From: a virus
IMG/VR virus record: IMGVR_UViG_3300010354_004459
Location: 1-34,319 of that record
DNA: 34,319 nucleotides
Strand: one strand, 5' to 3'
A program made the position numbers and the translations under genes. Shown here one piece after another: positions 1,252-23,746 of this stretch. Positions within the stretch are counted from its first letter, which is position 1; every line of letters starts with the position of its first letter. The notes under the pieces are model-generated. The model was not told the DNA's origin. It worked only from the letters and a program-made list of their open reading frames with translations, and did not search any database.

Positions 1252-1261
1252 AGATAAAAAA

Positions 1262-2497: not shown

Positions 2498-2498
2498 A

Positions 2499-3770
2499 AT
2501 GAAAGATATAGCAGACTTAATCAAAACTGGAAAGCATTTTTGTATATTACCTTGGATGCACTTTCATGCTTGGCCAGACAAGCGTGTATTACCTTGTTGT
2601 ATAGCAAATAGCAATGATGTATATGCCACCGTTGACGAAAATTCATCTATTTTAGACATGATGAATAGTGAAAAATTTAAACAAATGAGATTGGCATTTT
2701 TAAATGATGAACCGGTAAGTAGTTGTCAAAGGTGCTATGATTTAGAAGCATTGGGAACTACTACTATGCGTAATAGTCACAATGCTAATTGTCCTAGCCG
2801 CAATGGTATAACTCCAGAATATGTAAAAGACGTAACTAACGAAGATGGTAGTTTAAAGTCATTTCAAATGAAATACATGGATATGCGATTTAGCAATTTG
2901 TGTAATATGAAATGTCGCAGTTGCGGACCTAGTTGCTCAAGTCAATGGGCACAAGAATTTATAGATCATAAAGGCGTCGAAGTTCTAAACAAACATTTTA
3001 ATATGACTAAAATGGTCGTGAGTAATAATGAAGATCAAGTTTTTATGACAAAATTAAAACCATATCTAAAGGATGTAGTTGAGGTATACTTTGCTGGCGG
3101 CGAAGTTATCATTACTCCTGAACATTACGAGTGTTTAGATTATTGGTTAGAAACAGGTGTAAATGAAAAAATTGAATTAACTTATACTACAAATTTTTCT
3201 AGTTTAAAATATAAAGATAAAGACCTAATCGAATACTGGAAAAAATTTCCTAAATTGATTATTTGGGCTAGCCTTGATGGTATGGGTAAACACGGTGAAT
3301 TAATTAGAAAAGGCACTGACTGGGATAGGATAGAAAAGAATTTACGTGAAATTAAAGAGCTAGTACCACACGCTAGATTTCAAATAACTCCAACAATAAG
3401 TATTTGGAATGTGTACCAATTTCCTAAATTTTTTGATTATCTAATTGATAATGACTTAATTGATAAAAATACGGCACCGAGGTTTAACTTAGCTACTAGT
3501 CCCTGGTATGCTAATATCATGATTCTTCCAGAATTTAGTAAAGAGAAGCTAACTCGACTGTACAGAGAGTATATTCACAAATATAGTTATAATAAGGCAA
3601 TTAGTGATGGTTTTAAAATGGTACAGCAGAATTTAAAAAGCGGTGAACCAAACAAAGGTGGCTTACAAGAATTTATTAAGTTCAATGATGAATTAGATAT
3701 TGTTAGAAATGAAAAAATTCTAGATGTAGCCCCTGAACTCAAAGAGGTGTATAGATGGGCAAAAAGTTAA
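2499..3770 (+). CDS. Radical SAM protein with N-terminal twitch-type cysteines (paralog 3 of 3)
   Basis: The protein has 423 residues. The radical-SAM cysteines are C135, C139 and C142 (CNMKCRSC). The N-terminal auxiliary-type cysteines are C15, C33-C34, C76 and C79, with extra cysteines at C98 and C146. The SAM-binding GGEP of its two paralogs reads GGEV here (200-203), a conservative change that need not abolish activity. The repeated FAGGE, HY and RKGTDW elements show common ancestry with the two upstream genes. Its 3' end overlaps the next radical-SAM gene by 16 nt, suggesting translational coupling of all four enzymes. It is the most divergent of the three tandem copies. Confidence 0.85.
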   Translation: MKDIADLIKTGKHFCILPWMHFHAWPDKRVLPCCIANSNDVYATVDENSSILDMMNSEKFKQMRLAFLNDEPVSSCQRCYDLEALGTTTMRNSHNANCPSRNGITPEYVKDVTNEDGSLKSFQMKYMDMRFSNLCNMKCRSCGPSCSSQWAQEFIDHKGVEVLNKHFNMTKMVVSNNEDQVFMTKLKPYLKDVVEVYFAGGEVIITPEHYECLDYWLETGVNEKIELTYTTNFSSLKYKDKDLIEYWKKFPKLIIWASLDGMGKHGELIRKGTDWDRIEKNLREIKELVPHARFQITPTISIWNVYQFPKFFDYLIDNDLIDKNTAPRFNLATSPWYANIMILPEFSKEKLTRLYREYIHKYSYNKAISDGFKMVQQNLKSGEPNKGGLQEFIKFNDELDIVRNEKILDVAPELKEVYRWAKS

Positions 3771-4720
3771 TTGCTATCCATGCGCCAGAACCATATCTAG
3801 CAGTTACATGGCAAGTTAATAATTTTTGTAATTTTAAATGTAGCTACTGTAATCCAGGTAACTGGGGAGGAAGTCATCGTAACGATGATAATCTAGATGT
3901 TTATTTAAAAAATTTAGATATTATTATTAAAAGATATAAAAGTGTAGGATATAAGCATTATAAATTTTTCTTCAGCGGCGGAGAACCGACAGCCTGGAAG
4001 AATTTTATTCCAATATGCGAATGGTTAAGAGAACAATTACCTGATTGTACATTAGCTGTTAATACAAATTTAAGTAGACCGTTAGCCTGGTGGGAAAAAC
4101 ATTACCATTTGTTTGACGATATTGTGGCTAGTTTTCATGTTGAATTTGCCGACAAAGACAAATATAGAGATAACAATATTTTTCTCTGTGACAAGGTAAA
4201 TTATCTATGTACTAAGATGTTAATGCACGAAGAAAGATTTTGGGAAATAGTTGATTTTGGAAATTATTTAAAAACGGTTATGCCTAACTATTTTATTGAA
4301 TGGACTCCGTTGTTTGATGAAATGAGTGTTAATGCCGGGCCGTGGCAGTATAAAGACCAAGATAAGGCCAAATTTATCAATGAACATAATGTAGAAATGA
4401 ATTTTACTATACCCAAACCATATAAAGAAAGTAAAGCAGTTAGTTTTAATAGGTATGATGATAATTCTAAATCGCCTACAAACAGTAATGAAATTATTGT
4501 AAACGGACAAAACTTTTTTAAAGGTTGGATTTGTAATGTGGGAGATTGTATTTTTATAAATCCGACAGGACAAGTAAGTCTTGCTAGTTGTGGACAAGGT
4601 GATAGTGTAGGGCATATATTAAATGATATTTCTAAAGTTGGCCCTAAACAAATAGTATGCGGAAAAGATCATTGTCATTGCGGCACTGATATTATTATTC
4701 CAAAGTTTGACAGAGTTTAA
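3755..4720 (+). CDS. Radical SAM protein with C-terminal SPASM-like cysteines
   Basis: The protein has 321 residues. The radical-SAM core starts almost at once, with C25, C29 and C32 (CNFKCSYC), and GGEP lies at 75-78. The auxiliary-type cysteines are at the C-terminus: C260, C265, C279, C302, C307 and C309, with spacing like a SPASM or twitch domain. This is the usual order, the reverse of the three upstream paralogs, so it is a separate subfamily rather than a fourth tandem copy. The start lies 16 nt inside the previous gene. Substrate unknown. Clustering with three other radical-SAM proteins suggests sequential or partnered reactions, which is inference. Confidence 0.8.
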   Translation: MGKKLIAIHAPEPYLAVTWQVNNFCNFKCSYCNPGNWGGSHRNDDNLDVYLKNLDIIIKRYKSVGYKHYKFFFSGGEPTAWKNFIPICEWLREQLPDCTLAVNTNLSRPLAWWEKHYHLFDDIVASFHVEFADKDKYRDNNIFLCDKVNYLCTKMLMHEERFWEIVDFGNYLKTVMPNYFIEWTPLFDEMSVNAGPWQYKDQDKAKFINEHNVEMNFTIPKPYKESKAVSFNRYDDNSKSPTNSNEIIVNGQNFFKGWICNVGDCIFINPTGQVSLASCGQGDSVGHILNDISKVGPKQIVCGKDHCHCGTDIIIPKFDRV

Positions 4721-6682: not shown

Positions 6683-7876
6683 ATGAAAACAGTTGCGATG
6701 ATAGGAGTTGGGAAACTTGGGCAAGATTGTGCCGAGGTAATGGCCCAACATTATAATACAGTAGGATATGATGTAGCACCTAGGACACCTTCTAATTTCA
6801 GGATGTGCGACTCTATTAAAGAAGCCGTAGAGGGTAGAGATTTAATTTTTATAGCTGCTCCAACTGCTCATGATCCAATTTATGGTGGCGAAACTCCGAC
6901 TAGTCACCTTCCAAATAAAGACTTTGATTATACTGTTGTAAAACAGATTCTTGAAGAAGTTAACAAATATGTTAATAAATCGCAATTAGTTGTTCTAATT
7001 AGTACTACTTTACCGGGCACTGTAAGAAATTTACTAGCTCCTTGTATAACTAACGCTAGATTTATCTACAATCCATATCTTATAGCAATGGGCACAGTTA
7101 AATGGGATATGGTAAATCCAGAAATGGTAATTATTGGAACTGAAGATGGCAGTCTTACTGGAGACGCAAAAGAATTAATTGATTTTTATAAACCATTTAT
7201 GGAAAACAATCCTAGATACGAAGTTGGTACTTGGGACGAAGCAGAATCAATTAAGATATTTTATAATACTTTTATTAGTACAAAATTAGCTTTAGTAAAT
7301 ATGATACAAGATGTTGCTGAGACAAACGGTAACATTAATGTTGATGTAGTTACTAATGCTTTAAAGCATAGCACATACAGAATTATGGGTCCTGCATATA
7401 TGGGAGCCGGCCTAGGTGACGGTGGTGCATGTCATCCTAGAGATAACATTGCGTTAAGATACCTAGCAGAACGTTTAGATTTAGGATATGATCTATTTGA
7501 TGCTATTATGAAAGCTAGAGAAGTTCAAGCAAAACGAATGGCAAAACGATGTTTAGAATATGGTAAAAATGTAACAATTATTGGCAAAGCCTATAAGCCT
7601 GGTGTTCCTTATACAATAGGCAGTCCAAGTTTATTAGTAGGTCATTATGTTACAGAGCTAGGCGGGAATGTTCATTACTTTGACCCTAATACTGGCGATA
7701 TGGATATTAGAAAAGATTGGACAGACATATATTTAATAGGCTATTGGGAAGAGTGGATGAAAACAGCAGTGCCAGTGGGCGGAACTGTTTTAGATCCTTG
7801 GCGCAAATTAGATAGAGAATCTCATGTAGGATTTGAAGTTATTAGCTACGGAAATACTCGTAAAAAAAAAGTTTAA
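6683..7876 (+). CDS. Nucleotide-sugar 6-dehydrogenase (UDP-glucose/GDP-mannose dehydrogenase family)
   Basis: The protein has 397 residues, close to the family's usual length. It opens with a Rossmann motif GVGKLG (8-13). STTLPGT (107-113) matches the family's STVPPGT. The catalytic cysteine is C250 in GLGDGGACHPRD (matching GxGxGGxCxPKD). IIGKAYKPG and IGSPS resemble the C-terminal UDP-sugar-binding domain. The reaction would be NAD-dependent four-electron oxidation of a nucleotide sugar to its uronic acid, feeding the neighbouring glycosyltransferase-like proteins. The exact sugar cannot be told. The reading frame ends in CGT-AAA-AAA-AAA-GTT-TAA, an A9 run from which a -1 slip would run on into the next gene. 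Confidence 0.85.
   Translation: MKTVAMIGVGKLGQDCAEVMAQHYNTVGYDVAPRTPSNFRMCDSIKEAVEGRDLIFIAAPTAHDPIYGGETPTSHLPNKDFDYTVVKQILEEVNKYVNKSQLVVLISTTLPGTVRNLLAPCITNARFIYNPYLIAMGTVKWDMVNPEMVIIGTEDGSLTGDAKELIDFYKPFMENNPRYEVGTWDEAESIKIFYNTFISTKLALVNMIQDVAETNGNINVDVVTNALKHSTYRIMGPAYMGAGLGDGGACHPRDNIALRYLAERLDLGYDLFDAIMKAREVQAKRMAKRCLEYGKNVTIIGKAYKPGVPYTIGSPSLLVGHYVTELGGNVHYFDPNTGDMDIRKDWTDIYLIGYWEEWMKTAVPVGGTVLDPWRKLDRESHVGFEVISYGNTRKKKV
7862..7870 (+). promoter_or_regulatory. A9 run, possible -1 frameshift or transcript-slippage site
   Basis: Nine A residues end the dehydrogenase gene, two codons before its TAA. Positions 7864-7870 form A-AAA-AAA in the correct phase for an X-XXY-YYZ slippery heptamer. 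After a -1 shift the frame stays open through 7871-8958, joining the glycosyltransferase-like gene. A weak 8-bp inverted repeat follows at 7895-7902 and 7922-7929 with a 19-nt loop, farther away than a usual stimulator. A sequencing or assembly homopolymer error would give the same picture. Confidence 0.4.
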
Positions 7877-8987: not shown

Positions 8988-11243
8988 TTGGATTTTACTT
9001 TAAAAGGACTGGCAAAAAAAGAAATTACATTGCCAGAAAAACCACCTGAAGATATAGCAGACGCTCGTCATATGTCTATGATGAAAGCTATTGCTCCTTA
9101 TGCAAAACAATCTGTTCAAAAAAATCTCACACCAGTTTATGTAGATTATAAAACTAGGCGTACTAAATTAGTACTAGTCCTTTGTCCAGAATGGAGTCCG
9201 TACATGCCTCCGTTCAGCCTTGCTAGGTTAAGTGGAGTAGCTAAAAGCGCCGGATATGAAACCCATATTATGGATCTCAATGTACTGGCATATAAAGCTC
9301 ATAACGAAGATTGGATTCCAAACAAAAAAATTCCTTTTAGATTATGGGATCCGGCTGCTAGCTGGCATTGGCAAGGAGACACTTATTTAAAAGATATACA
9401 CCCTGTTCTTGAGCCACTACTAACTAAAGCTATAGATGATATTATCGAACTTAGTCCGCAAATTGTCGGATTTTCAATGTATTATATTAGCGAAGAACCA
9501 ACAAAATGGATGGCACAAGAATTAAAGCGCAGAGCTCCTCACATTAAGATAGCAGTCGGCGGCCCCAACGCTCATAAAAGCTGGTTTAAGGTTCATCCTT
9601 ATTATGATTATGTAGTAGTAGGTGAAGGAGAAATTAATTTACTTAAAGTTTTAGATGAGATTGAAGAAGGGGTTGAAAGGTCAGAGCCGTATATTCTTAA
9701 ACAAGAAGAAGACGAAAGAGTAAACATAAACGGTTTACCTATGCCCGATTATGAAAGTATAGACTTTAGTTTATATGATTTGCCTAACGGAGTTAACACG
9801 GAAATTAGTAGGGGATGTACTGCTAAATGTACATTCTGTGAAGAAACACATTTCTGGAAATATAGACAACGACAGGCAGTGGATTTAGTTACTGAATTAG
9901 AATGGTTATATTATAATAAGGGAACTGACGTTGTATGGTTTATTGACAGTCTAGTTAATGGAAATTTAAAAGAACTACGTGCCTTTTGTAAAGCAGTAGA
10001 AGCTAAAGGTTTGCCAATTAACTGGACAGGCTACGCTCGTTGTGATGGTCGCATGGATCTAGAATATTTCAAAGATCTAAAAGCTGGAGGTTGTATCATG
10101 TTAAATTACGGTATTGAAAGCGGTAGTCAACATGTACTAGACGATATGGCCAAAGGTGTAACTATCGCAGAAATGGAACAAAATTTTCGAGATGGCAAAG
10201 AAGTAGGTGTTTTTGCTGCTACAAATTGGATTGTTGGATTTCCTACAGAAACATTACAAGACTTTGCTGACAGCATGACATTCCTGTGGCGTATGCGTAA
10301 CATGAACATCAATAACGTGGGAGCTGGAGTAGGATATGGGTTAGGGCCAGAGACGATTGTGGGGCAAAATCCTGATAAATTTAATATAAGTTGGCACAAG
10401 TATCAAAATCATTGGATAACAAAAGATTTTACTAAAGGCGGTACTCATGTTATGACAAGAGTAAAAACATTTCATATGTTTTTAGATTTTATGACAGGTT
10501 GTACAGATGTTCCGTTTACATATCCTATAAGATTTAGTTTAGCTAAAGAACATTATAAAATAAAATTAGATAACCCTAATATAATTAAAGAAGTTGAATA
10601 TGAAAAATTTGATTACGAAATAATCAAAGCAAATATCAATCCTTTTGCTGATGCTCTTGTAAATGAAATGTGGCCGTTCTTTCGTATGTTATGGAAAACT
10701 AGAGGCGGATACGAAGCAGAAGTATTATTTAATCCTGATATAGACTTAAAAGAATTTGGTAGTCAATATGGTCCAGGTATGTACAATGCTGTATTTAAAT
10801 TTAAAATTACTGATGAAGGTGCATGGACTGCAGATTTTAAATTTAAATTTGATCAGATAGATAATCCATATGATAACAGAGAACCTCCTCCAACGGGTCG
10901 TAAAGGACCATTTTATGCTCAAGATTATAGTAGAATGATGAGTAATACTGCTAAACGTGCTAGAAAATTAGCCAAACCGACATGGGATATTGATACTGGT
11001 CGCGATGACACTCACTTTGGCGAGCTGTTAGATGAGGAACATTATCTCAACAATACTATAGATTTTACCTTCCAATTTAGATACAGGGGGTCCGGCCATT
11101 GGGGAAACTTTAAAGAATATGAAGTAGAAGTGGCTAATAGATCTTCTATGGAAGCTATTCCCGAAAAGCAAGACATGCATCTTTCTAACATCGTTATTCC
11201 TATCACTAGTATAAAAAGGAAGTCTGATGTCTTCAATAAGTGA
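8988..11243 (+). CDS. B12-binding-type radical SAM protein with unknown C-terminal region
   Basis: The protein has 751 residues. The start is TTG, supported by TAGGGAG at 8974-8980. Residues about 60-230 look like the Rossmann-type B12-binding domain common in this radical-SAM class (LVLVLCPEW, VGFSMYYI, AVGGPNAH, VVVGEGE). The radical-SAM cluster is C277, C281 and C284 in SRGCTAKCTFCEE, followed by a typical core (WFIDS, YGIESGS, GFPTET). Such enzymes often methylate unreactive carbon or phosphorus or rearrange ring systems using cobalamin. The last 250 residues or so are not recognised and look rich in beta strands (FKFKI, FKFKF, FQFRYRG). The 3' end overlaps the aminotransferase-like gene by 17 nt, placing it in the same pathway unit. 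Confidence 0.8.
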   Translation: MDFTLKGLAKKEITLPEKPPEDIADARHMSMMKAIAPYAKQSVQKNLTPVYVDYKTRRTKLVLVLCPEWSPYMPPFSLARLSGVAKSAGYETHIMDLNVLAYKAHNEDWIPNKKIPFRLWDPAASWHWQGDTYLKDIHPVLEPLLTKAIDDIIELSPQIVGFSMYYISEEPTKWMAQELKRRAPHIKIAVGGPNAHKSWFKVHPYYDYVVVGEGEINLLKVLDEIEEGVERSEPYILKQEEDERVNINGLPMPDYESIDFSLYDLPNGVNTEISRGCTAKCTFCEETHFWKYRQRQAVDLVTELEWLYYNKGTDVVWFIDSLVNGNLKELRAFCKAVEAKGLPINWTGYARCDGRMDLEYFKDLKAGGCIMLNYGIESGSQHVLDDMAKGVTIAEMEQNFRDGKEVGVFAATNWIVGFPTETLQDFADSMTFLWRMRNMNINNVGAGVGYGLGPETIVGQNPDKFNISWHKYQNHWITKDFTKGGTHVMTRVKTFHMFLDFMTGCTDVPFTYPIRFSLAKEHYKIKLDNPNIIKEVEYEKFDYEIIKANINPFADALVNEMWPFFRMLWKTRGGYEAEVLFNPDIDLKEFGSQYGPGMYNAVFKFKITDEGAWTADFKFKFDQIDNPYDNREPPPTGRKGPFYAQDYSRMMSNTAKRARKLAKPTWDIDTGRDDTHFGELLDEEHYLNNTIDFTFQFRYRGSGHWGNFKEYEVEVANRSSMEAIPEKQDMHLSNIVIPITSIKRKSDVFNK

Positions 11244-11817
11244 ATTTGAAAATTTAATAGCTGAATATTTTAATGCTCCGTATGCCGTAACTACAGATTG
11301 TTGTACACATGCAATAGAACTTTGTTTGAGATATACTAGACCTTCGTCGGCTATATGTCCTAGGCATACTTATTTGAGTATACCGATGACGTTAATAAAA
11401 CTTAGTATACCATTTGAATGGTATGATACTAATTGGCAAAATTATTATTATTTAGGTAAAACTAATATAATTGACGCTGCTGTATATTGGAAACAAGGCG
11501 GATACAAATCGGGAACATTCATGTGTTTAAGTTTTCAGTTTCGTAAACATTTAAATTTAGGTCGCGGTGGAATAATTTTAACAGACGACAGAGATGCTGC
11601 TATAAAATTAAAAAAAATGAGTTATGATGGTAGAGATCCTAACGTATTATGGAAGGAGCAAGATATTGATATGATTGGATATCATTATTATATGACTCCG
11701 GAAGTTGCTACTGAAGGAATTAGAAAATTTCATGAGATAAAAGATATTGAACCTAGGCTATGGTCTAGTAACGATTACCCTGATATAAGTAAGATGAAGG
11801 TGTTTAATGTTAAGTAA
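11227..11817 (+). CDS. Shortened DegT/DnrJ/StrS-type PLP-dependent aminotransferase-like protein
   Basis: The protein has 196 residues, against about 370 for the family. It keeps the recognisable family path: FE.LIAEYFNAPYAVTTDCCTHAIEL at the start, D83 in IIDAA (the usual pyridine-nitrogen aspartate), and K107 in SFQFRKHLNLGRGG (the usual PLP lysine followed by GGIILTDD). It ends soon after MTPEVATEGIRKF, so the C-terminal domain is missing. It could still form a dimeric PLP site or act in sugar binding only. Full-length relatives add an amino group to keto-sugars or cyclitols. The start is supported by AAAAGGAAG. It overlaps its upstream and downstream neighbours, so it is likely co-translated with the amidinotransferase. 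Confidence 0.7.
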   Translation: MSSISEFENLIAEYFNAPYAVTTDCCTHAIELCLRYTRPSSAICPRHTYLSIPMTLIKLSIPFEWYDTNWQNYYYLGKTNIIDAAVYWKQGGYKSGTFMCLSFQFRKHLNLGRGGIILTDDRDAAIKLKKMSYDGRDPNVLWKEQDIDMIGYHYYMTPEVATEGIRKFHEIKDIEPRLWSSNDYPDISKMKVFNVK

Positions 11818-12784
11818 AAACGAATGGGATCCTCTTAAAACTGTAATTGTTGGCACGGCTACTGATGCTAAAATACCCTATCTAGATGTAAGTTTAAGAA
11901 CAGTAAATTACGCAGATAAAAAAGATAACAATGATATTCCGTTTGGGTCTTATCCAAAAAAAGTTATTGAAGAAGCAAACGAAGATTTAGAAATATTTTG
12001 TAATTTTCTAAAAAAAGAAGGTGTAGAAGTTTTACGACCTGATCCTAATTTTATTCCTAATTATTATTACTATTGTCCTAGAGATATTGTGCTAGTACAT
12101 GATGAATTAATTCTTGCTACTCCTAACCCTTTAAGTGCTAGAAAATACGAGTATCATAGTATTTCTCATCATTTAAAAAAACATGGTGATATTAGAGTAT
12201 CTCATTGTAGTCATAACAATAGTTTGTATAACTTAAATTGTATAGGTAATCCAAATATTCTTGCGCTAAATGAAACTGAACCAGCGTTTGATGCTGCTAA
12301 CATTTTAAGAGACAATGATAATCTCTATTACCTTGTTAGTAACAGCGGAAATAAAAAAGGAGCAGAATATTTACAAGAATTGTTACCAAATAATAAAGTA
12401 TGGACTATAGAAGGCGTTTATAGTTATATGCATCTAGATAGCACAATTTGTCTTCTTAGGGAAGGGCTAATGTTGCTAAATCCTAGTAGAATAAAAAGTA
12501 TTGAGCAGTTACCAAGACCTTTACAAAATTGGGATGTTATTTGGTGCCCTGAACCGGTAGACATTGGCCATTATCCTGGATATTGTAATGCCAGTGTATG
12601 GATTAATATGAATCTTTTTAGTGTAAATCCTAATCTTGTAGCTCTTGAAAAAAATCAAGAATCATTACGTAAAGAATTAGAAAAGTATGGAATTGAATCA
12701 GCAATGTTGCCTATGCGTCAACAACGTACACTTGGTGGCGGGTTTCATTGCGTTACATTAGATATAATTAGAAATGAAATTTAA
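11807..12784 (+). CDS. Amidinotransferase (glycine / inosamine-phosphate amidinotransferase family)
   Basis: The protein has 325 residues. It opens with EWDPLKTVIVG, the standard start of this family. It carries EPAFDAAN at 158-165 (compare EPCFDAAD in arginine:glycine amidinotransferase), YMHLDST with H209 and D211, and the catalytic cysteine C315 in GGGFHCVTLDI. These enzymes move an amidino group from arginine to an amine, giving a guanidino product such as guanidinoacetate or the guanidino-cyclitol of streptomycin. The gene follows directly on a StrS-like aminotransferase relative, and that pairing is known from aminocyclitol antibiotic clusters. The acceptor here is unknown. The start has AAGGTG upstream and overlaps the previous gene by 11 nt. 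Confidence 0.85.
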   Translation: MLSKNEWDPLKTVIVGTATDAKIPYLDVSLRTVNYADKKDNNDIPFGSYPKKVIEEANEDLEIFCNFLKKEGVEVLRPDPNFIPNYYYYCPRDIVLVHDELILATPNPLSARKYEYHSISHHLKKHGDIRVSHCSHNNSLYNLNCIGNPNILALNETEPAFDAANILRDNDNLYYLVSNSGNKKGAEYLQELLPNNKVWTIEGVYSYMHLDSTICLLREGLMLLNPSRIKSIEQLPRPLQNWDVIWCPEPVDIGHYPGYCNASVWINMNLFSVNPNLVALEKNQESLRKELEKYGIESAMLPMRQQRTLGGGFHCVTLDIIRNEI

Positions 12785-13274
12785 ACAAGGTCATATAACT
12801 CCATTTTGGGATTCTAATTATAAGAATTTTCATTATGTAAAGCAACCTATTACTAATCATGAAATTAGTGATTGGGAGAAGCAAGGCTATGACTATGTTA
12901 AAAGTTTTACAGGATGGATGTATGATAATCGAAATCCTATGCCTGACTATTTAAATAATTTTACACACTTTGGATTAAAAAATCAAGTCTACTGTTTTTA
13001 TATGATGAAGACTTTAGAAATAATGCCTGTTCATACAGACAAATACCTTAGATATATAGAACTGTTTAATGCTAGGCCTGAAAATGTTTGTAGAGTCTTA
13101 GTTATGTTAGAAGATTGGAAACCAGGCCATTATTTAGAAATAGATAGTAAAGGTTATGTTAATTGGAAAGCCGGAGATTGGTTTTTATGGAATAATGATG
13201 TACCTCATGCAGCAAGTAACATTGGCACAGACAATCGATATACTTTACAAATAACTGGAGAAATGATTGTCTAG
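12774..13274 (+). CDS. Fe(II)/2-oxoglutarate oxygenase-like protein (Asp/Asn beta-hydroxylase type)
   Basis: The protein has 166 residues and looks like a compact double-stranded beta-helix oxygenase. The metal-binding set is H87-x-D89 in PVHTDKY and H145 in NNDVPHAASN, and R155 in DNRYTL is suited to bind 2-oxoglutarate. W131, G134 and D135 in NWKAGDWFLW, with the following PHAASN, are typical of aspartyl/asparaginyl-hydroxylase-like phage proteins. It probably hydroxylates a small molecule, sugar or protein side chain. It overlaps the amidinotransferase stop by 11 nt and the next gene by 8 nt, which ties it to this biosynthetic unit. The substrate is unknown. Confidence 0.75.
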   Translation: MKFKQGHITPFWDSNYKNFHYVKQPITNHEISDWEKQGYDYVKSFTGWMYDNRNPMPDYLNNFTHFGLKNQVYCFYMMKTLEIMPVHTDKYLRYIELFNARPENVCRVLVMLEDWKPGHYLEIDSKGYVNWKAGDWFLWNNDVPHAASNIGTDNRYTLQITGEMIV

Positions 13275-14502
13275 TATTCTACATAGCACACACTGGTTTA
13301 ATTTTCCAGAAACAAAATCTTTAGATGAAACTTTAAACAATTTGTTTATTGTCTCTACGCTGAAACAAACTTCAGTCAGTCATCTCCCAGTTATTATTAA
13401 TATGTGGAATGGTAAAATTAATATTTTAGATAGTTTTAATCATTCGGAAAATGAAAGGCAATATTTAAATAATACAGGTTTGTATATATTTTTGTACGAA
13501 CCATTATGTCAATATGTAGAAGGTTTTCCTCATAATAGAGGATTTCACAGTGAAGTAAAATTTGAACAAGACATAAATTTAATGAGAGCTGACGAGCTTG
13601 ACTCTATAAAGAAATATGTAATTAAAAATAATCTTACAAATGTTCATGTATATACATGCGACTACAATTCACATATATATTTTCCTTATTACAACAAGTA
13701 TTTTAAGATAGCGTGTGATGATTTGTTTATAAAAAATTATGTAGTATTTGAAGCTTCTAATAACAAAAAAATAGATAAAAATTTTATTTGTTTAAATTGG
13801 AGACATTCTAAACATAGACATTTACTTGCTGCTTTCTTAGCACAAGAAAATAGTTTTATAAGTTGGTATTTTAGATCAACTTTGGATATTTTGTTAGCAG
13901 ATATGTGGGCCGATATTTCTAAATGGCAATTTACTAACATAGAATTATATAATCAATTAGTAACCGGTCTTAATACACTAAACACAACATCTCCTAGATT
14001 ATTGGATATTGAGCAAGCTAATCTAGTAGACATAATAGATCCTAATATAGCATATTATCCAGAAAGTGTAAAGTATGCTAATCATCATAATCCTGCTATG
14101 GATAATAGCAGAAATAGTTTATTAGAGTCGTTTTATGATAGATCTTTCTGTGATGTTGTTAATGAAACTAGATTTGCCCAACATACAGGCAACTTTAGTG
14201 AAAAATTATTTCAGAGTGTGCGATATAAAACACCATTTATATTAGTTGCCCCTCCTAGGACTTTAGAATATGCTCAAAATTATGGATTTAAAACTTTTGA
14301 AAATTTCTGGGACGAAGGTTATGATCGATGTGATAATCATGAGCAAAGATTAATTAAAATATTTCAACTAATTAAATTTATTGGATCTTTGTCGTTAAAT
14401 GACTGTAAAAATCTATATAAAGACATGGAGCCTATTCTTGAGCATAATTATAATATATTAGTTGAAAAAACTTATTCTAAACAAACTCAAAAATACAAAT
14501 GA
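13267..14502 (+). CDS. Glycosyltransferase-like protein, paralog C
   Basis: The protein has 411 residues. It starts at TTG inside the end of the oxygenase gene, with GGAG six bases upstream. It is the most divergent member of the local three-gene family: NWRHSKHR at 177-184, NET at 299-301, FSEK at 310-313, TPF at 322-324, then GFKTF and DEGYD. The C-terminal IL.HNYN.L element is shared with paralog B. TEK has become SEK and HKHPF has become YKTPF, so specificity may differ. ATGA overlaps the next gene. A GT-B-like role is inferred from the motif pattern only. Confidence 0.55.
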   Translation: MSSILHSTHWFNFPETKSLDETLNNLFIVSTLKQTSVSHLPVIINMWNGKINILDSFNHSENERQYLNNTGLYIFLYEPLCQYVEGFPHNRGFHSEVKFEQDINLMRADELDSIKKYVIKNNLTNVHVYTCDYNSHIYFPYYNKYFKIACDDLFIKNYVVFEASNNKKIDKNFICLNWRHSKHRHLLAAFLAQENSFISWYFRSTLDILLADMWADISKWQFTNIELYNQLVTGLNTLNTTSPRLLDIEQANLVDIIDPNIAYYPESVKYANHHNPAMDNSRNSLLESFYDRSFCDVVNETRFAQHTGNFSEKLFQSVRYKTPFILVAPPRTLEYAQNYGFKTFENFWDEGYDRCDNHEQRLIKIFQLIKFIGSLSLNDCKNLYKDMEPILEHNYNILVEKTYSKQTQKYK

Positions 14503-15230
14503 AAAAAATAATGTTAATCGCAGGTTGTAGCCATGCTGCTGGTAGCGAAATAGATGGATCACAAGATAGTGTATTCAATAGGCAACACTCTTTTGGAAAT
14601 CTATTAGCTACAAGATTGGGTTACGAACCAGTTAATATTTGTAGCGTAGCTTCTGCAAATCCTTCTATAGCTAGACTAGTATTAGAATGGATAGAAACAA
14701 ATTATAATCCTGAGTCAATGGAGCTATTTGTTACAGTAGCATGGACTGAAAGTACTAGAATAGAACTGCCTAGTGTTACCGGAACTGACTATGCTGTTGC
14801 TAATAAAGCAGCAGATTGGTTTTCTAAATACGATAAAAATTATTATAGAATAAATCAGGGATGGGAAGGATCTACGGGTTATGAAAAACAAGTTTTGCCA
14901 GGTTATCAAAAATTTATAACTGATAACGTAACCTATCTAGAAATTTTAAGTGCTAATTTAGTTTTACAACTACAATGGTATTTTCAAAAATCTAAGATAA
15001 ATTATCTTATGTGTAATACTATGTATATGTTTACAAAAGATCCATATACTGAATTTTTTACGAACATGATAGATAAAGATAGATATATTGACTGTCTTAA
15101 TAATGATGAATCATTTTATTGGAAATATCGAAACGCTGGTTATAAAAATGAAAAAGCACAGTATTGGCATCACGGTGAAGAGCCGCACAAATTGTATGCT
15201 GATAAACTATATAAATTTATAACGGAATAA
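14499..15230 (+). CDS. SGNH/GDSL-hydrolase-like protein B
   Basis: The protein has 243 residues. Block I is IAGCSHAAGSE with presumed nucleophile S11, and SVASANPS at 49-56 resembles block III with its asparagine. The C-terminus has HHGEEPHKLYADKL, where H225 or H230 could serve as the block-V histidine. It is only distantly like the SGNH-like gene at 5864, so the two are not recent duplicates. The start overlaps the upstream glycosyltransferase-like gene as ATGA. Pairing of an SGNH-like gene with a glycosyltransferase-like gene happens twice on this strand, which supports a glycan acylation or deacylation role. Confidence 0.5.
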   Translation: MKKIMLIAGCSHAAGSEIDGSQDSVFNRQHSFGNLLATRLGYEPVNICSVASANPSIARLVLEWIETNYNPESMELFVTVAWTESTRIELPSVTGTDYAVANKAADWFSKYDKNYYRINQGWEGSTGYEKQVLPGYQKFITDNVTYLEILSANLVLQLQWYFQKSKINYLMCNTMYMFTKDPYTEFFTNMIDKDRYIDCLNNDESFYWKYRNAGYKNEKAQYWHHGEEPHKLYADKLYKFITE

Positions 15231-15235
15231 ATCTT

Positions 15236-18200
15236 ATGTATGATATTTTTGTTATTGGCGAAAATACCAATTGGAAAAAAATAAAGACAAAATATCCTTT
15301 TGCTAAAAAAGTAAAAGATTTTCATGAAGCAAGAAATAAATCTCTTACTCCGATGTTTTGGGCAGTGTGGCCTGATATAGATGTTAAAGAAGATTTTGAT
15401 TTTACATTGAATGTGCCTAAATGGGACGAAGAATATGTACATGTATGGAAAAATAAAGAGTATTATGATGGGTTATCTCTTGTTCCCAAACATAAACATA
15501 TTTCTGATAGAGAAATAAATTATAGATTTTTTACAGATAAAAAAGAAATAGATCAAGTTGCTAGTGAACCAAAGAAATACGATATATTTGAAATAGAAAC
15601 TTATGAGCAATATTTAGAGGCAATGGAAAAGACAACCACAGATATGTTCTGGATGACTAGTCCTAATTTAAAAATTGCTGAAGGATTTGATTTTAGTTTT
15701 CAAGGCACTAGATATGAAAACCATGCCTTTATACATCTAGTTAATAATGAAAAACTTTATAATGGTATTTTTCTTTTAAGTAAACACAGACCCGTAACAA
15801 AAAAAGAAATAGAGCATCGTCATATTATTGAACGTAAGGAATGGGACATTATAGCATCAGGTCCTTGCCAGTATGATATCTTTGAAATAGAAACCTACAA
15901 GCAATATCAAGAAGCATTAGAAAACTCTCGTACTGAAATGTTTTGGATGACATCACCTAATTTGAGTCCCGCTGATGACTTTAAGTTTGATATCTATTTT
16001 AGTCACGACAAAATTTATGATAGAAATGAAAATCACGCATTTGTTCATTCAGTGGGAGAAGAAAGATTATATAATGGAATATTCCTTCTTAGTAAGACCA
16101 AGAAAGTAAGTCGACGAGAAATTGAAAATAGATATATCATGGAACGCAAAGAATGGGACATTATTGCTTCGGGTCCATGCGAATATGAAAAATTTATTGT
16201 AGACACATATGATCAGTATATTGAAGCAAAAAATAAGTCACGTACAGAAATGTTTTGGGCTATTCCTAGTACTGTTGATCTATTAGATGATTTTAAATTT
16301 GATTTATATTTTGAGCACAATAACATTTATGACAGAGTGATGACTCACATTTTTAGAAACAGTGAGTTTTACGATGGTGTGATGTTAATTACTAAAAACA
16401 GAGAAATTAGTCAAAAAGAATTTGACTATGGATTTATTGTTGCTAGAAAAGAATACGATGTCTTAGCTAGTGTCCCTAAAAAGTTTGATAAATTTGATAT
16501 TAAAACATATCAAGATTATTTAGATGCATGCGAAAAATCAACTACAGGGATGTTTTGGGCTGTGTGGTCAGATGTCGAACTGGTAGAAAATTTTGATTTT
16601 GATTATTACGTACCAAGATATAATCAACATATAACACATATTTTTAGGAACGGTGATCATTTTGATGGCATTTGTTTGTTTAGCAAACATCAAAAAGTTT
16701 CAGAAAAAGAATTTAAATATAGATTCTTTAATGATAAAAAAGAAATAGATTATATCATTAGTTATCCAAAACAATACAATATTTTTACGATAGAAACATA
16801 CGAACAATACTTAGAGGCTTTAGAAAAGTCGACCACTGATTTATTCTGGATGACATCACCTAACTTAAAAGTTGCTGAAGATTTTAAATTTGATTTATAC
16901 ATAACCCATCATAATGCTTATGAAAGACAAGAGAATCATGGTTTTATACACAGAGTAGGGGATGAAGATTTTTATAATGGTATTTTTCTTTTAAGTAAAC
17001 ACAGACCTGTAACAAAAAAAGAAATCGAACATAGATATCTTATTGAAAAGAAAGAATGGGATATTGTTGCGTCAGGTCCTTGCAAATACGATATTTTTGA
17101 AATTGAGACTTACGAGCAATATTTAGACGCAATGACAAATTCTAAAACAGAATTGTTTTGGATGACGTCTCCTAATTTAAAAATTGCTGATGACTTTAAA
17201 TTTGATTTGTATTTTGATCATAGTAACACATTTGATAGAAACACAAATCACGTATTTGTACATTTAGTTAATGAAGAAAAGTTATACAACGGTGTATTTT
17301 TAATGAGTAAACACTGTCCGGTAACTAAAAAAGAAATTGAGCATAGATATATTGTAGAACGTAAAGAATGGGACATTATCGCATCAGGGCCATGCCAATA
17401 CGAAATATTCAAGGCAGATACTTATAACGAATATCTACATGCAAAAACATCTTCTAAAACAGAAATGTTTTATGTAGTACACTCAAATATTAAAGTACTT
17501 GATGATTTTAAATTCGATTTATACTTTGATCATTACAATATTTTTGATAGAAATATAACACACATTTATAGGAATAGTGAGTTCTTTGATGGTGTTATGC
17601 TAATGTCGAAGCACAAAGAAATTAGTCAACGAGAATTTGACTATGGATTTATTGTAGACAGAAAAGAACATGATGAAATGTCTAGTCTACCCAAGAAGTT
17701 TGATATATTTAGAATAGAAACATACGAACAATACTTAGAGGCCTGTAAGCAATCGACTACTGGAATGTTCTGGGCTATATGGCCTGATGTAGAAGTAGTT
17801 GAAGATTTTGATTATGATTATTATGTACCTAAATACAATCAGCATATCACACACGTATTTAGAAACGGAAATTCATTTGACGGCATTTGCTTGCTAAGTA
17901 AGTATGTTCCGATTACTGAAAAAGAATTTAAATATAGATTCTTTAATGATAAAAAAGAAATAGATTATATTGCGAGTTACCCTGTTCCTTATGATAAGTT
18001 TGAAATTGAAACTTACGAGCAATACTTAGAAGCCTTAGAAAATTCTACAACAGATCTTTTCTGGATGACATCACCCAACTTAAAAGTTGCTGATAATTTT
18101 AGTTTAGATGAATTTCATACATCGGAGAGATATTTTAATCATGCGTTTGCACATCTAGTTAACAACGAAAAGTTGTACAACGGCGTATTCTTGTTAAGTA

Positions 18201-20764
18201 AATTTCAACCAGTGACTAAGAAAGAAATTGAACATAGATATCTTATTGAAAAGAAAGAGTGGGACGAAGTTGTATCTGGACCTTGCGTGTATGATAAGTT
18301 TGTAGCAGATACATATGATCAATATTTAGAGGCTAGAAATAATTCTAGAACTGAAATGTTCTGGGTAACTCACTCTACAATGAAAATATTGGATGATTTT
18401 AAATTTGATTTATATTTTGATCATCATAACAATTATGATAGAAATATCACACACGTATTTAAAAATAGTGACTTCTATGACGGTGCAATGCTTATTCCGA
18501 AAAATAAAGATATTTCTAAAAAGGAATTTAATGCTGGCTTTATTATAGATAGAAAAGAATACGATATTCTGTCAAGCTTACCTGTTAAATTTGACATTTT
18601 TAATATAAAAACATACCAAGATTATTTGCAGGCCTGTAAACAATCGTCTACTGGAATGTTTTGGGCCATATGGCCTGATGTAGAAATGGTAGAAGATTTT
18701 GATTATGATTATTATGTTCCTAGATATAATCAGCATATAACTCATGTGTTTAAGAATGGAGATTATTTTGATGGTGTCTGTCTTTTTAGCAAATATGTTC
18801 CGATAACAGAAAAGGAATTTAAATATAGATTCTTTAATGAAAAGAAAGAGATAGATTACACTATCAGTTATCCTAAGAAATATGATATTTTTGAAATTGA
18901 AACATATGAACAGTATCAATTTGCCTTAGAAAATTCTACAACAGATCTTTTCTGGATGACATCACCTAACTTAAAAGTTGCTGATGAGTTTAAGTTTGAT
19001 TTATACATAACCCATCATAATCCTTATGAGCGAAATGAGAGTCATGCCTTTATACATCTAGTTAATGATGAAAAACTTTATAATGGTATTTTTTTATTAA
19101 GTAAAAATAAACCGGTAACTAAAAAGGAAATTGAACATAGATATATCATAGAGCGTAAAGAGTGGGACGTTGTTGCGTCAGGTCCGTGTGTGTATGATAA
19201 ATTTATTATTGATTCTTATGATCAATACATAGAAGCTAAGGCAAAATCTAGAACTGAAATGTTCTGGGCTATTCCCTCTGATGTAAAATTATTAGAAGAC
19301 TTTAAGTTTGATACGTATTACCATCATGAAAAGATATTTGAAAGAAAAACAAATCATGCTTTCTTAAACGGTGTACATTACGATGGAGTATATCTATTAA
19401 GTAAGCATATTGACATATCAAAGAAAGAATTTGACAATAAGTTTATCATTGATAGAAATGAAACTGAAATAGTAGCAAGTAATCCAGTTCAATTTGATAT
19501 TCACTATATTAATAATTATCAAGACTACATAGAAGCCTGTGAAACTTCTTCAACAAATATGTTCTGGTGTGTGTGGCCTGATGTAAATGTAATTAGCGAT
19601 CTAGATTATTATGTTCCTCGCTATAATCAACATATAACACATATTTTTAAGAATAATGAATATTTTGATGGTATTTGTTTGTTTAGTAAAACAAATAGAG
19701 TTTCTGAAAAAGAATTTAAGTATCGATTCTTTAGCGAGAAAAAAGAAATAGATATAATTTTAAGTGAACCTAAATCATATGACAAGTTTGTAATTAGCTC
19801 GTATGCTGATTACAAAGTTGCTTTAGAAACTAGTCAAACAGATATGTTTTGGATTATTCCATCTGAAGTAGAGCCACTTGATAATTTTAAATTTGATGTG
19901 TATTTTAGTCATCATAATGTATACGATAGAACAATAAATCACAGCTACAAACATATGTTTAGAGGTGAAGAAACGTTTAATGGTATTTGTTTAATGAGCA
20001 AATACATTCCAGTTAGTGAAAAAGAAATTAATTTTAGATATCTAGTAGAAAGAAAAGAATGGGATGTTGTAGCTAGTAAGATGAAACCATATGATATTAT
20101 TTTTATCAGTTATAATGAGATTAATGCCGAAGAAAATTTTAAAAATATTAAATTAAAATTTGATAGAGTTAAACGAGTACACGGCGTTAAAGGTATTCAT
20201 CAAGCACATATAAAAGCAGCAGAATTATCAGAAACTGAAAACTTTTGGGTAGTTGACGGCGATGCTGTAGTCGTTGATGATTTTTACTTTGACTATGAAA
20301 TTCCTGTATGGGAAAGAGACACAGTTCATGTATGGAGAAGTAAAAATCCTATTAATGATTTAGTATATGGTTATGGTGGTATTAAATTACTACCAAAACA
20401 ACTTACGTTAAATATGGATGTAACTCGTCCTGACATGACTACCAGTATCAGCGATAAATTTAAGCCAGTTCAGTCTATTAGTAATATTACTGCTTTTAAT
20501 ACTGACGAGTTTAGTACATGGAAGTCCGCTTTCCGTGAATGTGCTAAATTAGCAGGTAAAGCTATTGATAGACAAGTTGATGCCGAAACAGAAGAAAGAT
20601 TAAATGTATGGTGTACAGAGGGAGCAGATAAACTATACGGCGAATATGCTATTAGAGGTGCTCAAGCCGGCAGAAAGTTTGCTACAGAACAACCAGAAAA
20701 TTTATCTAAGATAAATGATTTTGATTGGTTATACGAACAATATGAAAAAGATAACAGTAAATGA
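15236..20764 (+). CDS. Giant protein of 16 tandem degenerate GT-A-like repeats plus a C-terminal GT-A-like domain
   Basis: The protein has 1842 residues, with no signal peptide or membrane segment. Residues 1-1618 form 16 tandem units of 95-114 residues, starting at 1, 115, 213, 317, 417, 514, 618, 722, 822, 919, 1019, 1119, 1216, 1320, 1420 and 1515. Each unit runs YDxFxIxTYxQYxEA, then FW, DDFKFD, H.F, YxGxxLLSK and KKEI or KEF. The units fall into three types, in order C-A-A-B-C-A-A-B-C-A-B-C-A-B-C plus a mixed last unit. The C-terminal domain (1619-1842) has YDIIFISYNE, VHGVKG and DGD at 1674-1676, and matches the next gene. The repeats align to it but have lost DGD. It may be an adhesin, scaffold or glycan-binding array. 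Function unknown. Confidence 0.85.
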   Translation: MYDIFVIGENTNWKKIKTKYPFAKKVKDFHEARNKSLTPMFWAVWPDIDVKEDFDFTLNVPKWDEEYVHVWKNKEYYDGLSLVPKHKHISDREINYRFFTDKKEIDQVASEPKKYDIFEIETYEQYLEAMEKTTTDMFWMTSPNLKIAEGFDFSFQGTRYENHAFIHLVNNEKLYNGIFLLSKHRPVTKKEIEHRHIIERKEWDIIASGPCQYDIFEIETYKQYQEALENSRTEMFWMTSPNLSPADDFKFDIYFSHDKIYDRNENHAFVHSVGEERLYNGIFLLSKTKKVSRREIENRYIMERKEWDIIASGPCEYEKFIVDTYDQYIEAKNKSRTEMFWAIPSTVDLLDDFKFDLYFEHNNIYDRVMTHIFRNSEFYDGVMLITKNREISQKEFDYGFIVARKEYDVLASVPKKFDKFDIKTYQDYLDACEKSTTGMFWAVWSDVELVENFDFDYYVPRYNQHITHIFRNGDHFDGICLFSKHQKVSEKEFKYRFFNDKKEIDYIISYPKQYNIFTIETYEQYLEALEKSTTDLFWMTSPNLKVAEDFKFDLYITHHNAYERQENHGFIHRVGDEDFYNGIFLLSKHRPVTKKEIEHRYLIEKKEWDIVASGPCKYDIFEIETYEQYLDAMTNSKTELFWMTSPNLKIADDFKFDLYFDHSNTFDRNTNHVFVHLVNEEKLYNGVFLMSKHCPVTKKEIEHRYIVERKEWDIIASGPCQYEIFKADTYNEYLHAKTSSKTEMFYVVHSNIKVLDDFKFDLYFDHYNIFDRNITHIYRNSEFFDGVMLMSKHKEISQREFDYGFIVDRKEHDEMSSLPKKFDIFRIETYEQYLEACKQSTTGMFWAIWPDVEVVEDFDYDYYVPKYNQHITHVFRNGNSFDGICLLSKYVPITEKEFKYRFFNDKKEIDYIASYPVPYDKFEIETYEQYLEALENSTTDLFWMTSPNLKVADNFSLDEFHTSERYFNHAFAHLVNNEKLYNGVFLLSKFQPVTKKEIEHRYLIEKKEWDEVVSGPCVYDKFVADTYDQYLEARNNSRTEMFWVTHSTMKILDDFKFDLYFDHHNNYDRNITHVFKNSDFYDGAMLIPKNKDISKKEFNAGFIIDRKEYDILSSLPVKFDIFNIKTYQDYLQACKQSSTGMFWAIWPDVEMVEDFDYDYYVPRYNQHITHVFKNGDYFDGVCLFSKYVPITEKEFKYRFFNEKKEIDYTISYPKKYDIFEIETYEQYQFALENSTTDLFWMTSPNLKVADEFKFDLYITHHNPYERNESHAFIHLVNDEKLYNGIFLLSKNKPVTKKEIEHRYIIERKEWDVVASGPCVYDKFIIDSYDQYIEAKAKSRTEMFWAIPSDVKLLEDFKFDTYYHHEKIFERKTNHAFLNGVHYDGVYLLSKHIDISKKEFDNKFIIDRNETEIVASNPVQFDIHYINNYQDYIEACETSSTNMFWCVWPDVNVISDLDYYVPRYNQHITHIFKNNEYFDGICLFSKTNRVSEKEFKYRFFSEKKEIDIILSEPKSYDKFVISSYADYKVALETSQTDMFWIIPSEVEPLDNFKFDVYFSHHNVYDRTINHSYKHMFRGEETFNGICLMSKYIPVSEKEINFRYLVERKEWDVVASKMKPYDIIFISYNEINAEENFKNIKLKFDRVKRVHGVKGIHQAHIKAAELSETENFWVVDGDAVVVDDFYFDYEIPVWERDTVHVWRSKNPINDLVYGYGGIKLLPKQLTLNMDVTRPDMTTSISDKFKPVQSISNITAFNTDEFSTWKSAFRECAKLAGKAIDRQVDAETEERLNVWCTEGADKLYGEYAIRGAQAGRKFATEQPENLSKINDFDWLYEQYEKDNSK
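15578..20089 (+). repeat. Fifteen tandem coding repeats of about 0.3 kb in three alternating types
   Basis: The DNA encodes residues 115-1618 of the giant protein. Type A units have FWMTSPN and end ASGPC. Type B units have FWAIPS, FYVVHS or FWVTHS and GFI..RKE. Type C units have FWA[VI]W, YNQHITH and YRFF[NS][DE]KKEID. Higher-order units are A-A-B-C (about 400 residues) twice, then A-B-C (about 297 residues) twice. Positions 18032-18075 and 18923-18966 are identical over 44 nt and lie 891 bp apart, exactly one A-B-C unit, showing recent duplication or gene conversion. Confidence 0.9.
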
Positions 20765-21671
20765 ATTTGATGTAATTTACATTAGCTATGATGAACCAAA
20801 CGCTGATCGTAATTATGCGGATCTTTGTTCTAAAATACCTTGGGCTAAAAGAGTACACGGTGTTAAAGGCAGCGATGCCGCACACAAGGCAGCAGCAAAC
20901 TTATCTGAAACAAACAGGTTTGTCACTGTTGACGGGGATAATGTTCTTACTGGCAATTTTTTAAATCAAGTTATAGAAGTAGAAGATAACTTTGACTTAG
21001 ACAATTGTGTTATTAGTTGGCCTAGTTATAATATTATTAATGGTCTTATGTACGGTAACGGTGGAATAAAATGTTGGCCAAAACACATTGTTTTAGATAT
21101 GAAAACACATGAGGCCGCACCCGCTGACAATGTTAAAAGTCAAATTGATTTTTGTTGGGATTTAGATTACTTGCCTTTAGATAGAGCATATAGCGAAATA
21201 CACAATAACGGTAGTCCATTACAAGCATGGCGAGCAGGATTTCGTGAAGGTGTTAAAATGAGCCTCGAGCAAGGCCAACGTGTAAAACATTTGAAAGATG
21301 TTTGGCCAGGTAACTATCAACGTTTAGGCATTTGGGCAATGGTAGGTGCTGATGTAGAACACGGTATGTGGAGTATACTTGGTGCTAGACAAGGATGCTA
21401 TTTGACCCACTTTACAGATTGGGATTTTGTCAATGTTAGAGATTTTGATTATTTAAATCAATTTTTTGAAGACAAAGTCAAGGGAACAAATCCGTTAGAA
21501 TTGGCCATAAAAATAGGGAATCTCATCAAAGATGAACTCCCTATAGATGAACCGTTATCGGTAATACAAAGTAAATGGTTTAAGACATTTAATTTTAATA
21601 TTACTAGAAAATCAGATTCAGTAAAACATTATAGTGATTTAGACAGCGGAAAAATCTCAGCAATGATTTGA
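20742..21671 (+). CDS. GT-A-like glycosyltransferase candidate, related to the giant protein's C-terminus
   Basis: The protein has 309 residues from the ATG at 20742. An in-frame ATG at 20715 would add nine residues, but homology begins after the inner start. Features are DVIYISYDEPNAD at 10-22, RVHGVKG at 37-43, AHKAAA and VDGDN at 63-67. This resembles the first strand and the DxD metal/nucleotide-sugar motif of GT-A enzymes. It shares YISY.E, RVHGVKG, VDGD, GGIK..PK and GAR or GAQ elements with residues 1619-1842 of the upstream protein, so one gave rise to the other. It overlaps that gene by 23 nt, and its tail overlaps the opposing thyX by 43 bp. Donor and acceptor are unknown. Confidence 0.6.
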   Translation: MKKITVNEFDVIYISYDEPNADRNYADLCSKIPWAKRVHGVKGSDAAHKAAANLSETNRFVTVDGDNVLTGNFLNQVIEVEDNFDLDNCVISWPSYNIINGLMYGNGGIKCWPKHIVLDMKTHEAAPADNVKSQIDFCWDLDYLPLDRAYSEIHNNGSPLQAWRAGFREGVKMSLEQGQRVKHLKDVWPGNYQRLGIWAMVGADVEHGMWSILGARQGCYLTHFTDWDFVNVRDFDYLNQFFEDKVKGTNPLELAIKIGNLIKDELPIDEPLSVIQSKWFKTFNFNITRKSDSVKHYSDLDSGKISAMI

Positions 21672-22309: not shown

Positions 22310-22623
22310 TTTAACTTTTTATTTTTTAAGAATTTTTGAGTGTGTTTTGTGATGTCTTTTTTAATTTTGTGTGTGTCTAATTGAAAGTCTATGTTTTCAA
22401 TATCAGATTCATATTGGTGGACCATCTCTTTAAATTGGGATTCAAATGAATCCCAATCGTCTACCTTATTCTTACTAACTTTTATTTCCCAAACTTTACC
22501 GTTTTTAAATGTGATATTAATACTGTTTAGATAATGTAGTGGAACAACATTACAAGTTATTTCACCAAATACTTCTGGCCAGCGATCAATGATTTCTTTG
22601 GGAAGGCTTTTCCCATTAACCAC
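22306..22623 (-). CDS. Conserved-looking phage protein, unknown function
   Basis: The protein has 105 residues and is not recognised. It starts at GTG, 8 nt inside the end of the upstream gene. The N-terminal half (RWPEVFGEI, VVPLHYLNSINITFKNGKVWEI) looks like a compact alpha-beta domain. The last 30 residues are lysine-rich and helical (KIKKDITKHTQKFLKNKKLK), which could bind nucleic acid or a partner. ATGA coupling to thyX suggests co-translation, not a shared role. Confidence 0.65.
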   Translation of the reverse strand: MVNGKSLPKEIIDRWPEVFGEITCNVVPLHYLNSINITFKNGKVWEIKVSKNKVDDWDSFESQFKEMVHQYESDIENIDFQLDTHKIKKDITKHTQKFLKNKKLK

Positions 22624-23266: not shown

Positions 23267-23267
23267 G

Positions 23268-23704: not shown

Positions 23705-23746
23705 AAGTTCTCCTTATATTGATTATATATCCTTATAATTTATCTT

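Follow-up and report, generated by a model that had tools for sequence, protein, structure and literature searches.

By predicted fold, the closest described relatives of the protein considered here are GT-A glycosyltransferases of the GT2/GT27 type, namely the E. coli K4 chondroitin polymerase (K4CP), which is a two-domain GT-A enzyme, WrtF and the ppGalNAc transferases. To our knowledge, none of these carries an array of half-domain copies. Our subject is a gene at 15236-20764 (+ strand) of a 34,319-nucleotide viral stretch, positions 1 to 34,319 of the IMG/VR record IMGVR_UViG_3300010354_004459, referred to below as the window. Its open reading frame (ORF) starts with ATG and codes for 1842 aa: first come 16 units, each 95-113 aa long, and then a 224-aa non-repeat domain, which we call G (aa 1619-1842; 20090..20761, +). 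G resembles the above enzymes in its predicted fold, Rossmann-like front half and DxD motif, but identity in the structural alignment is ~10% and there is no sequence-family match. The kind of enzyme is known; the architecture, in which as many as 16 dead front-half copies are joined to one live domain, appears to be new.

In pelagimyophages and cyanomyophages, tail fibres, glycosyltransferases and radical S-adenosylmethionine (SAM) cassettes make up a 'host recognition cluster'; the part of that paper considered here deals mainly with GT8-type transferases, favours modification of the host O-chain and mentions no repeat-bearing transferase (PMC7029224). The cultured cyanophage S-SCSM2R (PQ898602.1, 229.6-236.3 kb) has, among annotated glycosyltransferases, the same DegT-type 'AHBA synthase', amidinotransferase (62%), 2-oxoglutarate (2OG)-Fe(II) oxygenase and radical SAM genes as the window, but no G domain or unit was found there by tblastn. 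Stand-alone homologues of G occur in Streptomyces, Dyadobacter, Bdellovibrio-like metagenome-assembled genomes (MAGs) and roseobacters. They are 27-61% identical to G over nearly its full length, lie in glycosyltransferase operons in both annotated loci and carry no units in any case fetched. Two proteins of uncultured Caudovirales phages, A0A6J5LK21 (804 aa) and A0A6J5L5L5 (1076 aa), match two units plus G of the window protein very strongly by structure (E 2.9e-27 and 2.5e-26 in BFVD, followed mainly by viral GT-A proteins). Both are shorter than the window protein and named only 'uncharacterized'; judging by the predicted models, they probably belong to the same family.

The sequence-only reading of this gene had described a protein built of 16 repeats of three types, A, B and C, in the order C-A-A-B-C-A-A-B-C-A-B-C-A-B-C plus a mixed unit. 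Unit mapping and profile matches bear out both number and order, with all 16 units matched by the unit profile at E 1e-28 to 1e-47, far above chance. Two of the labels had to be changed, as the first 'C' is a conserved N-terminal cap and the 'mixed' unit belongs to a conserved last-unit type. A protein of repeats is also an incomplete description, since it missed the DxD-bearing non-repeat domain at aa 1619-1842. The units start at aa 2, 115, 213, 317, 417, 514, 618, 722, 822, 919, 1019, 1119, 1216, 1320, 1420 and 1515. The cap (unit 1, C-like, 113 aa; 15239..15577) retains more of the N-terminal region of G than the internal units do and is the unit closest to G (33%). It is followed on the same strand by two type A units (unit 2, 15578..15871; unit 3, 15872..16183), B (unit 4, 16184..16483), C (unit 5, 16484..16774), again two A units (unit 6, 16775..17086; unit 7, 17087..17398), B (unit 8, 17399..17698), C (unit 9, 17699..17989), A (unit 10, 17990..18289), B (unit 11, 18290..18589), C (unit 12, 18590..18880), A (unit 13, 18881..19192), B (unit 14, 19193..19492), C (unit 15, 19493..19777) and the last-unit type (unit 16, 19778..20089), which is kept beside G in relatives. 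Identity is 61-80% inside type A, 46-67% inside type B and 62-81% inside type C (first unit excluded), against ~32-51% across types. The polar positions H51, K71, E79, E90 and S96 are conserved in all units and persist across types.

The units are homologous to the domain they precede. The stretch FWVVDGDAVV in G stands where the units carry FWMTSPN, FWAIPSD or FWAVWPD. The unit profile matches G with a domain E of 1.5e-8 in the window and ~1e-10 in relatives, and hhalign of units against G gives a probability of 97.5% (E 7.9e-12, 62 columns). Only the front half of G is covered by this alignment; its second, acceptor-side half is absent from the units. The DxD motif of the window's G is DGD at aa 1674-1676 (20255..20263, +), and the units never have DxD at the equivalent position. 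Among all aligned units and G domains collected in this analysis, DxD (DGD or DAD) is present in 92/92 G domains and in 0/224 units, the first Asp being left in a single unit of the 224. Therefore, a live domain behind dead ones is a rule of the family and not a quirk of the window. Having lost both the DxD and the acceptor-side half, the units cannot catalyse; judged by these alignments, they are truncated, catalytically dead copies of the front half of G. The known proteins form a series from bare G through one unit plus G to 16 units plus G, with the units in front. The simplest history would be a duplication of G, loss of the back half from one copy and multiplication of the shortened copy.

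The AlphaFold2 model of units 15-16 plus G is confident (predicted local distance difference test score, pLDDT, 89.3; predicted template modelling score, pTM, 0.78). In the PDB, Foldseek matched it to K4CP (E 3.5e-5), the fucosyltransferase WrtF and ppGalNAc transferases with probabilities of 0.99-1.00, and also to SunS; the matches with E<1e-3 are mostly GT-A transferases. The prediction of one A-B-C block (units 10-12), a check suggested by the sequence-only reading, also gave a confident model (pLDDT 92.8, pTM 0.83), but its PDB matches are weak (best E 0.046). The top ones belong to the same fold class and include WrtF (probability 0.98) and the nucleotide-sugar pyrophosphorylase VTC1.

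On fold, motif and context, G very probably serves a phage glycan cassette as a GT-A glycosyltransferase, its activity being a prediction. For the protein as a whole, the reading that we consider probable is that of a phage glycosyltransferase equipped with a pseudo-glycosyltransferase arm and operating within such a cassette. Several points weigh against it. Neither the models of Pfam, NCBIfam and PHROGs nor the sequences of the PDB include a match to G, so that fold, motif and context are what its assignment to an enzyme class is built on; no curated glycosyltransferase family of Pfam or NCBIfam exceeds its cut-off, Glyco_transf_8C (E 0.0034) falling below it. Foldseek gave low TM-scores (TMq of 0.16-0.29, with TMt mostly <0.4), because the query was two units plus G instead of G by itself and the alignments spread across the extra units, which limits the weight of the match. 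The array must be dispensable for the basic reaction, since 44 of 91 loci have G without it. Ligand binding by the units is a conjecture. Finally, no tail-fibre gene is seen in the window itself, a 34-kb fragment as recorded, although glycan genes are present. Two further database matches of the 1842-aa protein, to Pfam 'Glutaredoxin' (E 2.2e-7 for the whole protein, with no single stretch passing) and to PHROG 16394, were judged to be spurious sums over the repeats.

Unit trees were used to check the types and their history. In a tree of 17 rows, type A stands alone on one side of a branch (96/98), while B and C cluster without strong support. A larger tree, of the 59 units found in the long-array proteins of the window and three relatives, separates type A (99), type B (91) and the C side (99), and unites the first units (100) and the last units (97) in clades of their own. 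The three types are therefore distinct, B and C clearly so only once the units of the three relatives were added. They are limited to the window's own lineage; other lineages carry different unit types.

Artefactual assembly of the array is unlikely. Exact DNA repeats in the gene reach 53 bp at most, and pairs of units are mostly 50-79% identical in DNA, which argues against both collapse and false expansion. Similar arrays are also present on independent contigs: L001 has 16 units, and three contigs from as many metagenomes (L002, L003 and L024) have one unit series in common, with 13 complete units in L024 (L002 begins inside the first unit and L003 is split by a frameshift).

Growth by copying of multi-unit blocks, as proposed from the sequence alone, holds in part. 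The periods of ~400 and ~297 aa are confirmed, and the two copies of the 53-bp repeat lie 1215 nt apart (405 aa, one A-A-B-C period). However, no pair of blocks is uniformly closest, and there is no simple ladder of duplications, rearrangement having overwritten it. A contiguous A-A-B-C block of L001 (units 5-8) is split in the window, where units 2 and 3 pair with L001 units 5 and 6, and units 14 and 15 are the orthologues of L001 units 7 and 8; ten other units separate the two halves. As read from these unit relationships, the history of the array is one of block duplication plus rearrangement and not a clean ladder.

G is common in uncultured phages, with at least 591 confirmed stretches in IMG/VR. 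Neither G nor a unit was found in the 50,697 phage records of INPHARED by tblastn (E 1e-5 to 0.1) with the whole 1842-aa protein, the G paralogue G' described below and a bare G as queries. The search is sound, as the same approach with the window's MoxR-like ATPase finds 813 records. Several G-bearing contigs also code for a major capsid protein, a portal protein and a prohead protease of T4 type, and one of these capsid proteins shares 66-72% identity with its counterparts in the jumbo T4-like phages Phosso, Vibrio 2.275.O and PA5oct. Within the lineage of the window, the nearest long contigs (L001, L024 and L037) are without these markers, so the window's phage is placed among T4-like phages by extension only.

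In the species genomes of bacteria and archaea, 84,980 in all, relatives of G are encoded by 86 stretches, with no units among those fetched. Three of the contigs, binned to a Neisseriaceae MAG (L126), a Neomarinimicrobiota MAG (L125) and a Rickettsiales MAG (L127), have a G 57-61% identical to the phage G; they may be phage contigs or prophages in MAGs instead of carrying cellular genes. In five other loci (L073, L079, L093, L112 and L114) G' and G are fused in one protein of 830-1117 aa with an additional C-terminal ~300-550 aa. This extension has no Pfam match in L093, the one tested, and by eye its sequence may be methyltransferase-like.

No curated family names G or the units, which constitute a widespread, so far unnamed glycosyltransferase family of uncultured phages. 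The earlier remark that no protein with this plan had been described still stands for Pfam, PHROGs, NCBIfam, INPHARED and open-access papers, the two close BFVD proteins being uncharacterised. No description of tandem dead GT-A half-domains was found in the open-access literature, so a prior account elsewhere is possible, and no paper on a phage cassette combining SPASM proteins and glycosyltransferases was found in that literature either.

The genes around the array gene are largely those of sugar and radical SAM enzymes. The window opens with four consecutive radical SAM proteins, three of them of SPASM/radical SAM type (1..4720, +). In these three (1-3770, +) a SPASM-type cysteine region lies N-terminal to the core (for instance, SPASM at 18-85 and core at 132-280), whereas usually the radical SAM core comes first. 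Next come a UDP-glucose/GDP-mannose dehydrogenase (6683..7876, +; E 5e-17) and a B12-binding radical SAM enzyme (8988..11243, +). A second, different dehydrogenase-like gene of the former type is located at 33111-33932 (-); its product has no match to the C-terminal domain of the family. The following genes code for a DegT/DnrJ/EryC1 sugar aminotransferase-like protein (11227..11817, +; E 1.1e-13), an amidinotransferase (11807..12784, +) that is 62% identical to the 'inosamine amidinotransferase' of Synechococcus phage S-SCSM2R, and a 2OG/Fe(II) oxygenase-like protein (12774..13274, +) with sub-threshold PhyH and Asp_Arg_Hydrox matches. The gene row at 11227-13274 suggests a guanidinylated amino-sugar or cyclitol in a phage glycan.

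Between this row and the array gene lie two ORFs. The 411-aa one (13267..14502, +) has no Pfam match, belongs to neighbour cluster 4 (33/93 loci) and is probably another transferase. The 243-aa ORF directly upstream of the array gene (14499..15230, +) has a weak DUF6071 match (E 2.6e-4, below the cut-off) and, judged by eye from its sequence, an SGNH/GDSL-like N-terminus. Downstream, G' (20715..21671, +) is a 318-aa paralogue of G, with 37% identity and no units, that adjoins G in many relatives. A block on the opposite strand (21629-33081, -) codes for Thy1, a pair of MoxR-type ATPase and DUF2201 metallopeptidase/VWA protein, a T4 RNase H-like exonuclease, a QueE-like radical SAM protein, FolE and an HIT protein. 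The MoxR-type ATPase shares 53% identity with its counterparts in PA5oct-like jumbo phages.

A similar setting recurs in relatives. Radical SAM/SPASM proteins are found at 73/93 G loci, a second DAD-bearing family of probable transferases at 42/93, UDP-sugar dehydrogenase-like proteins at 23/93, and the virion- or fibre-like clusters 5 and 9 at 32/93 and 18/93, respectively. The neighbour cluster holding G itself drew in other proteins through fusions, and its size was not used. The usual order is fibre-like (9, 5), small (3), a transferase pair (2, 2), small (8 or 11), G', G (arrayed or bare) and radical SAM, and in relatives the locus is seen together with the tail-fibre and glycan genes of a T4-like phage. 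The G' family (~305 aa) has units in none of 49 proteins, and its DxD is aligned in 34/46, the remainder being partly alignment failures. In bacteria, Streptomyces noursei has G between two GT-B type transferases and a GT2 (a GT4-G-GT1-GT2 operon, typed by Pfam on hand-picked genes), while in Dyadobacter G is fused to a GT2 domain beside radical SAM, GT-B (GT1 type) and GT2 genes, in the order radical SAM, GT1 type, G::GT2 fusion, GT2.

Taken with this context, the glycosyltransferase with a pseudo-glycosyltransferase arm can be pictured as follows. The C-terminal 224 residues, G, would bind a nucleotide sugar through the DxD and transfer the sugar. The 16 modules, presumably arisen by duplication and truncation of the front, Rossmann-like and nucleotide-binding, half of G, would pack as a rigid string that holds the acceptor, whether glycan or protein, or determines how far along it the enzyme can reach. 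We give about an even chance to this role of the arm, i.e., binding or positioning the acceptor or setting reach. The partners in the cassette would be the UDP-sugar dehydrogenase, sugar aminotransferase, amidinotransferase, oxygenase, radical SAM enzymes and other transferases, and the product would most likely decorate either the tail fibres of the phage itself or the surface of its host. Of the two targets, the virion fibre has a chance that we put a little short of even, and a host surface glycan is possible but less likely.

The arm could instead be a scaffold on which A, B and C units each dock a partner enzyme of the cassette (radical SAM, G', other transferases), giving an assembly line for the glycan. 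The regular order of the three types, the polar positions conserved in all units and the recurrence of radical SAM and transferase neighbours would fit such a scaffold. A neighbour of ~211 aa (cluster 8, e.g., L063:3148-3780) is found at 17/47 arrayed but only 1/44 bare loci; this count ignores common ancestry, and the protein is a candidate acceptor or partner. Radical SAM proteins, on the other hand, are not tied to arrays (cluster 1 is at 34/47 arrayed and 39/44 bare loci), and the A, B and C types are clear in the window's lineage only. We regard the docking scaffold as unlikely.

Unit number is not stable: it ranges from 0 (45 distinct proteins) to 16 per G protein, and proteins whose G domains are 91-96% identical differ, with 13 and 14, 3 and 4, or 5, 6 and 7 units. 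The comparison of unit number among related phages, proposed in the sequence-only reading, therefore revealed variation even between close relatives. This variation, the many homologues without any unit and exact repeats of 50-61 bp, which indicate fairly recent exchange between units, could mean that the array merely grows by unequal recombination and is tolerated, its units being linkers without function. However, pairwise ratios of nonsynonymous to synonymous substitution rates (dN/dS) are 0.03-0.14 for units (where dS could be estimated) and 0.04-0.08 for G, i.e., purifying selection on the dead units is as strong as on the catalytic domain, so they are maintained and not decaying. Invariant positions are kept across unit types, and the first and last units are specialised and conserved. 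Functionless drift is accordingly rather improbable.

A stronger version of the acceptor-holding arm would be a sugar-reading ruler, in which each dead unit keeps a sugar or glycan site, types A, B and C read different residues of a repeating acceptor, and unit number and order set the identity or length of the glycan. We consider this quite improbable; if true, phages would retune their glycan by reshuffling units through block recombination.

From the letters alone, the protein had been thought a possible adhesin, glycan-binding array, assembly scaffold or variable surface factor. As an adhesin, receptor-binding or variable surface or virion protein, it would use its repeats to present surfaces, either glycan-binding or antigenic, on the particle or on the cell, and this would suit a long repeat protein of variable unit number, found near tail-fibre-like genes in many relatives. 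But no signal peptide-like or transmembrane stretch was found in the 1842 aa (19-residue Kyte-Doolittle means reach 0.64 at most, and the N-terminus has no hydrophobic stretch), whereas a secretion signal or membrane anchor is expected of an adhesin or surface repeat protein. PHROG profiles matched only models of unknown function and none of tail fibres. The C-terminal domain is GT-A-like and its DxD is invariant, the gene context is enzymatic, bare G is about as common as arrayed G (44 and 47 loci), bacterial homologues lie in glycosyltransferase operons, and the repeats are under strong purifying selection instead of diversifying as a variable antigen would. Adhesin and surface factor are both unsupported, and such a role is very unlikely. 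The assembly scaffold fares no better, given the DxD-bearing domain and the radical SAM, nucleotide-sugar and transferase neighbours. The glycan-binding array survives as a possible function of the repeat arm, attached to an enzyme and made of dead copies of that enzyme's front half.

The T4 glucosyltransferases act on hydroxymethylcytosine in DNA, and G might likewise modify phage DNA instead of virion or cell surface, the more so as FolE, the QueE-like protein and Thy1 of the minus strand belong to nucleotide metabolism. These three are in a separate, oppositely oriented block, no hydroxymethylase was found, the cassette consists of sugar and radical SAM enzymes adjoining fibre-like genes in relatives, and bacterial homologues sit in GT4/GT2 glycan operons, all of which makes a DNA target highly doubtful. 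That every unit is a working transferase of a multi-active-site polymerase, of the K4CP or hyaluronan synthase kind, is suggested by the best PDB fold matches but already contradicted by the single DxD domain of the 1842-aa protein, where a K4CP-like synthase has two or more active ones, by the complete lack of DxD in units and by their size of only ~100 aa without the whole second half of G.

Overall, the glycosyltransferase with its arm of pseudo-glycosyltransferase units represents an unusual enzyme build, in which dead copies are kept by selection while their number shifts between close relatives. It gives a name to many proteins now called 'hypothetical' and offers a starting point for finding out how large phages of the environment add glycans to their fibres or to their host. 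Should the arm read or measure the acceptor, phages would have in it a natural, modular means of setting the specificity or the length of a glycan.

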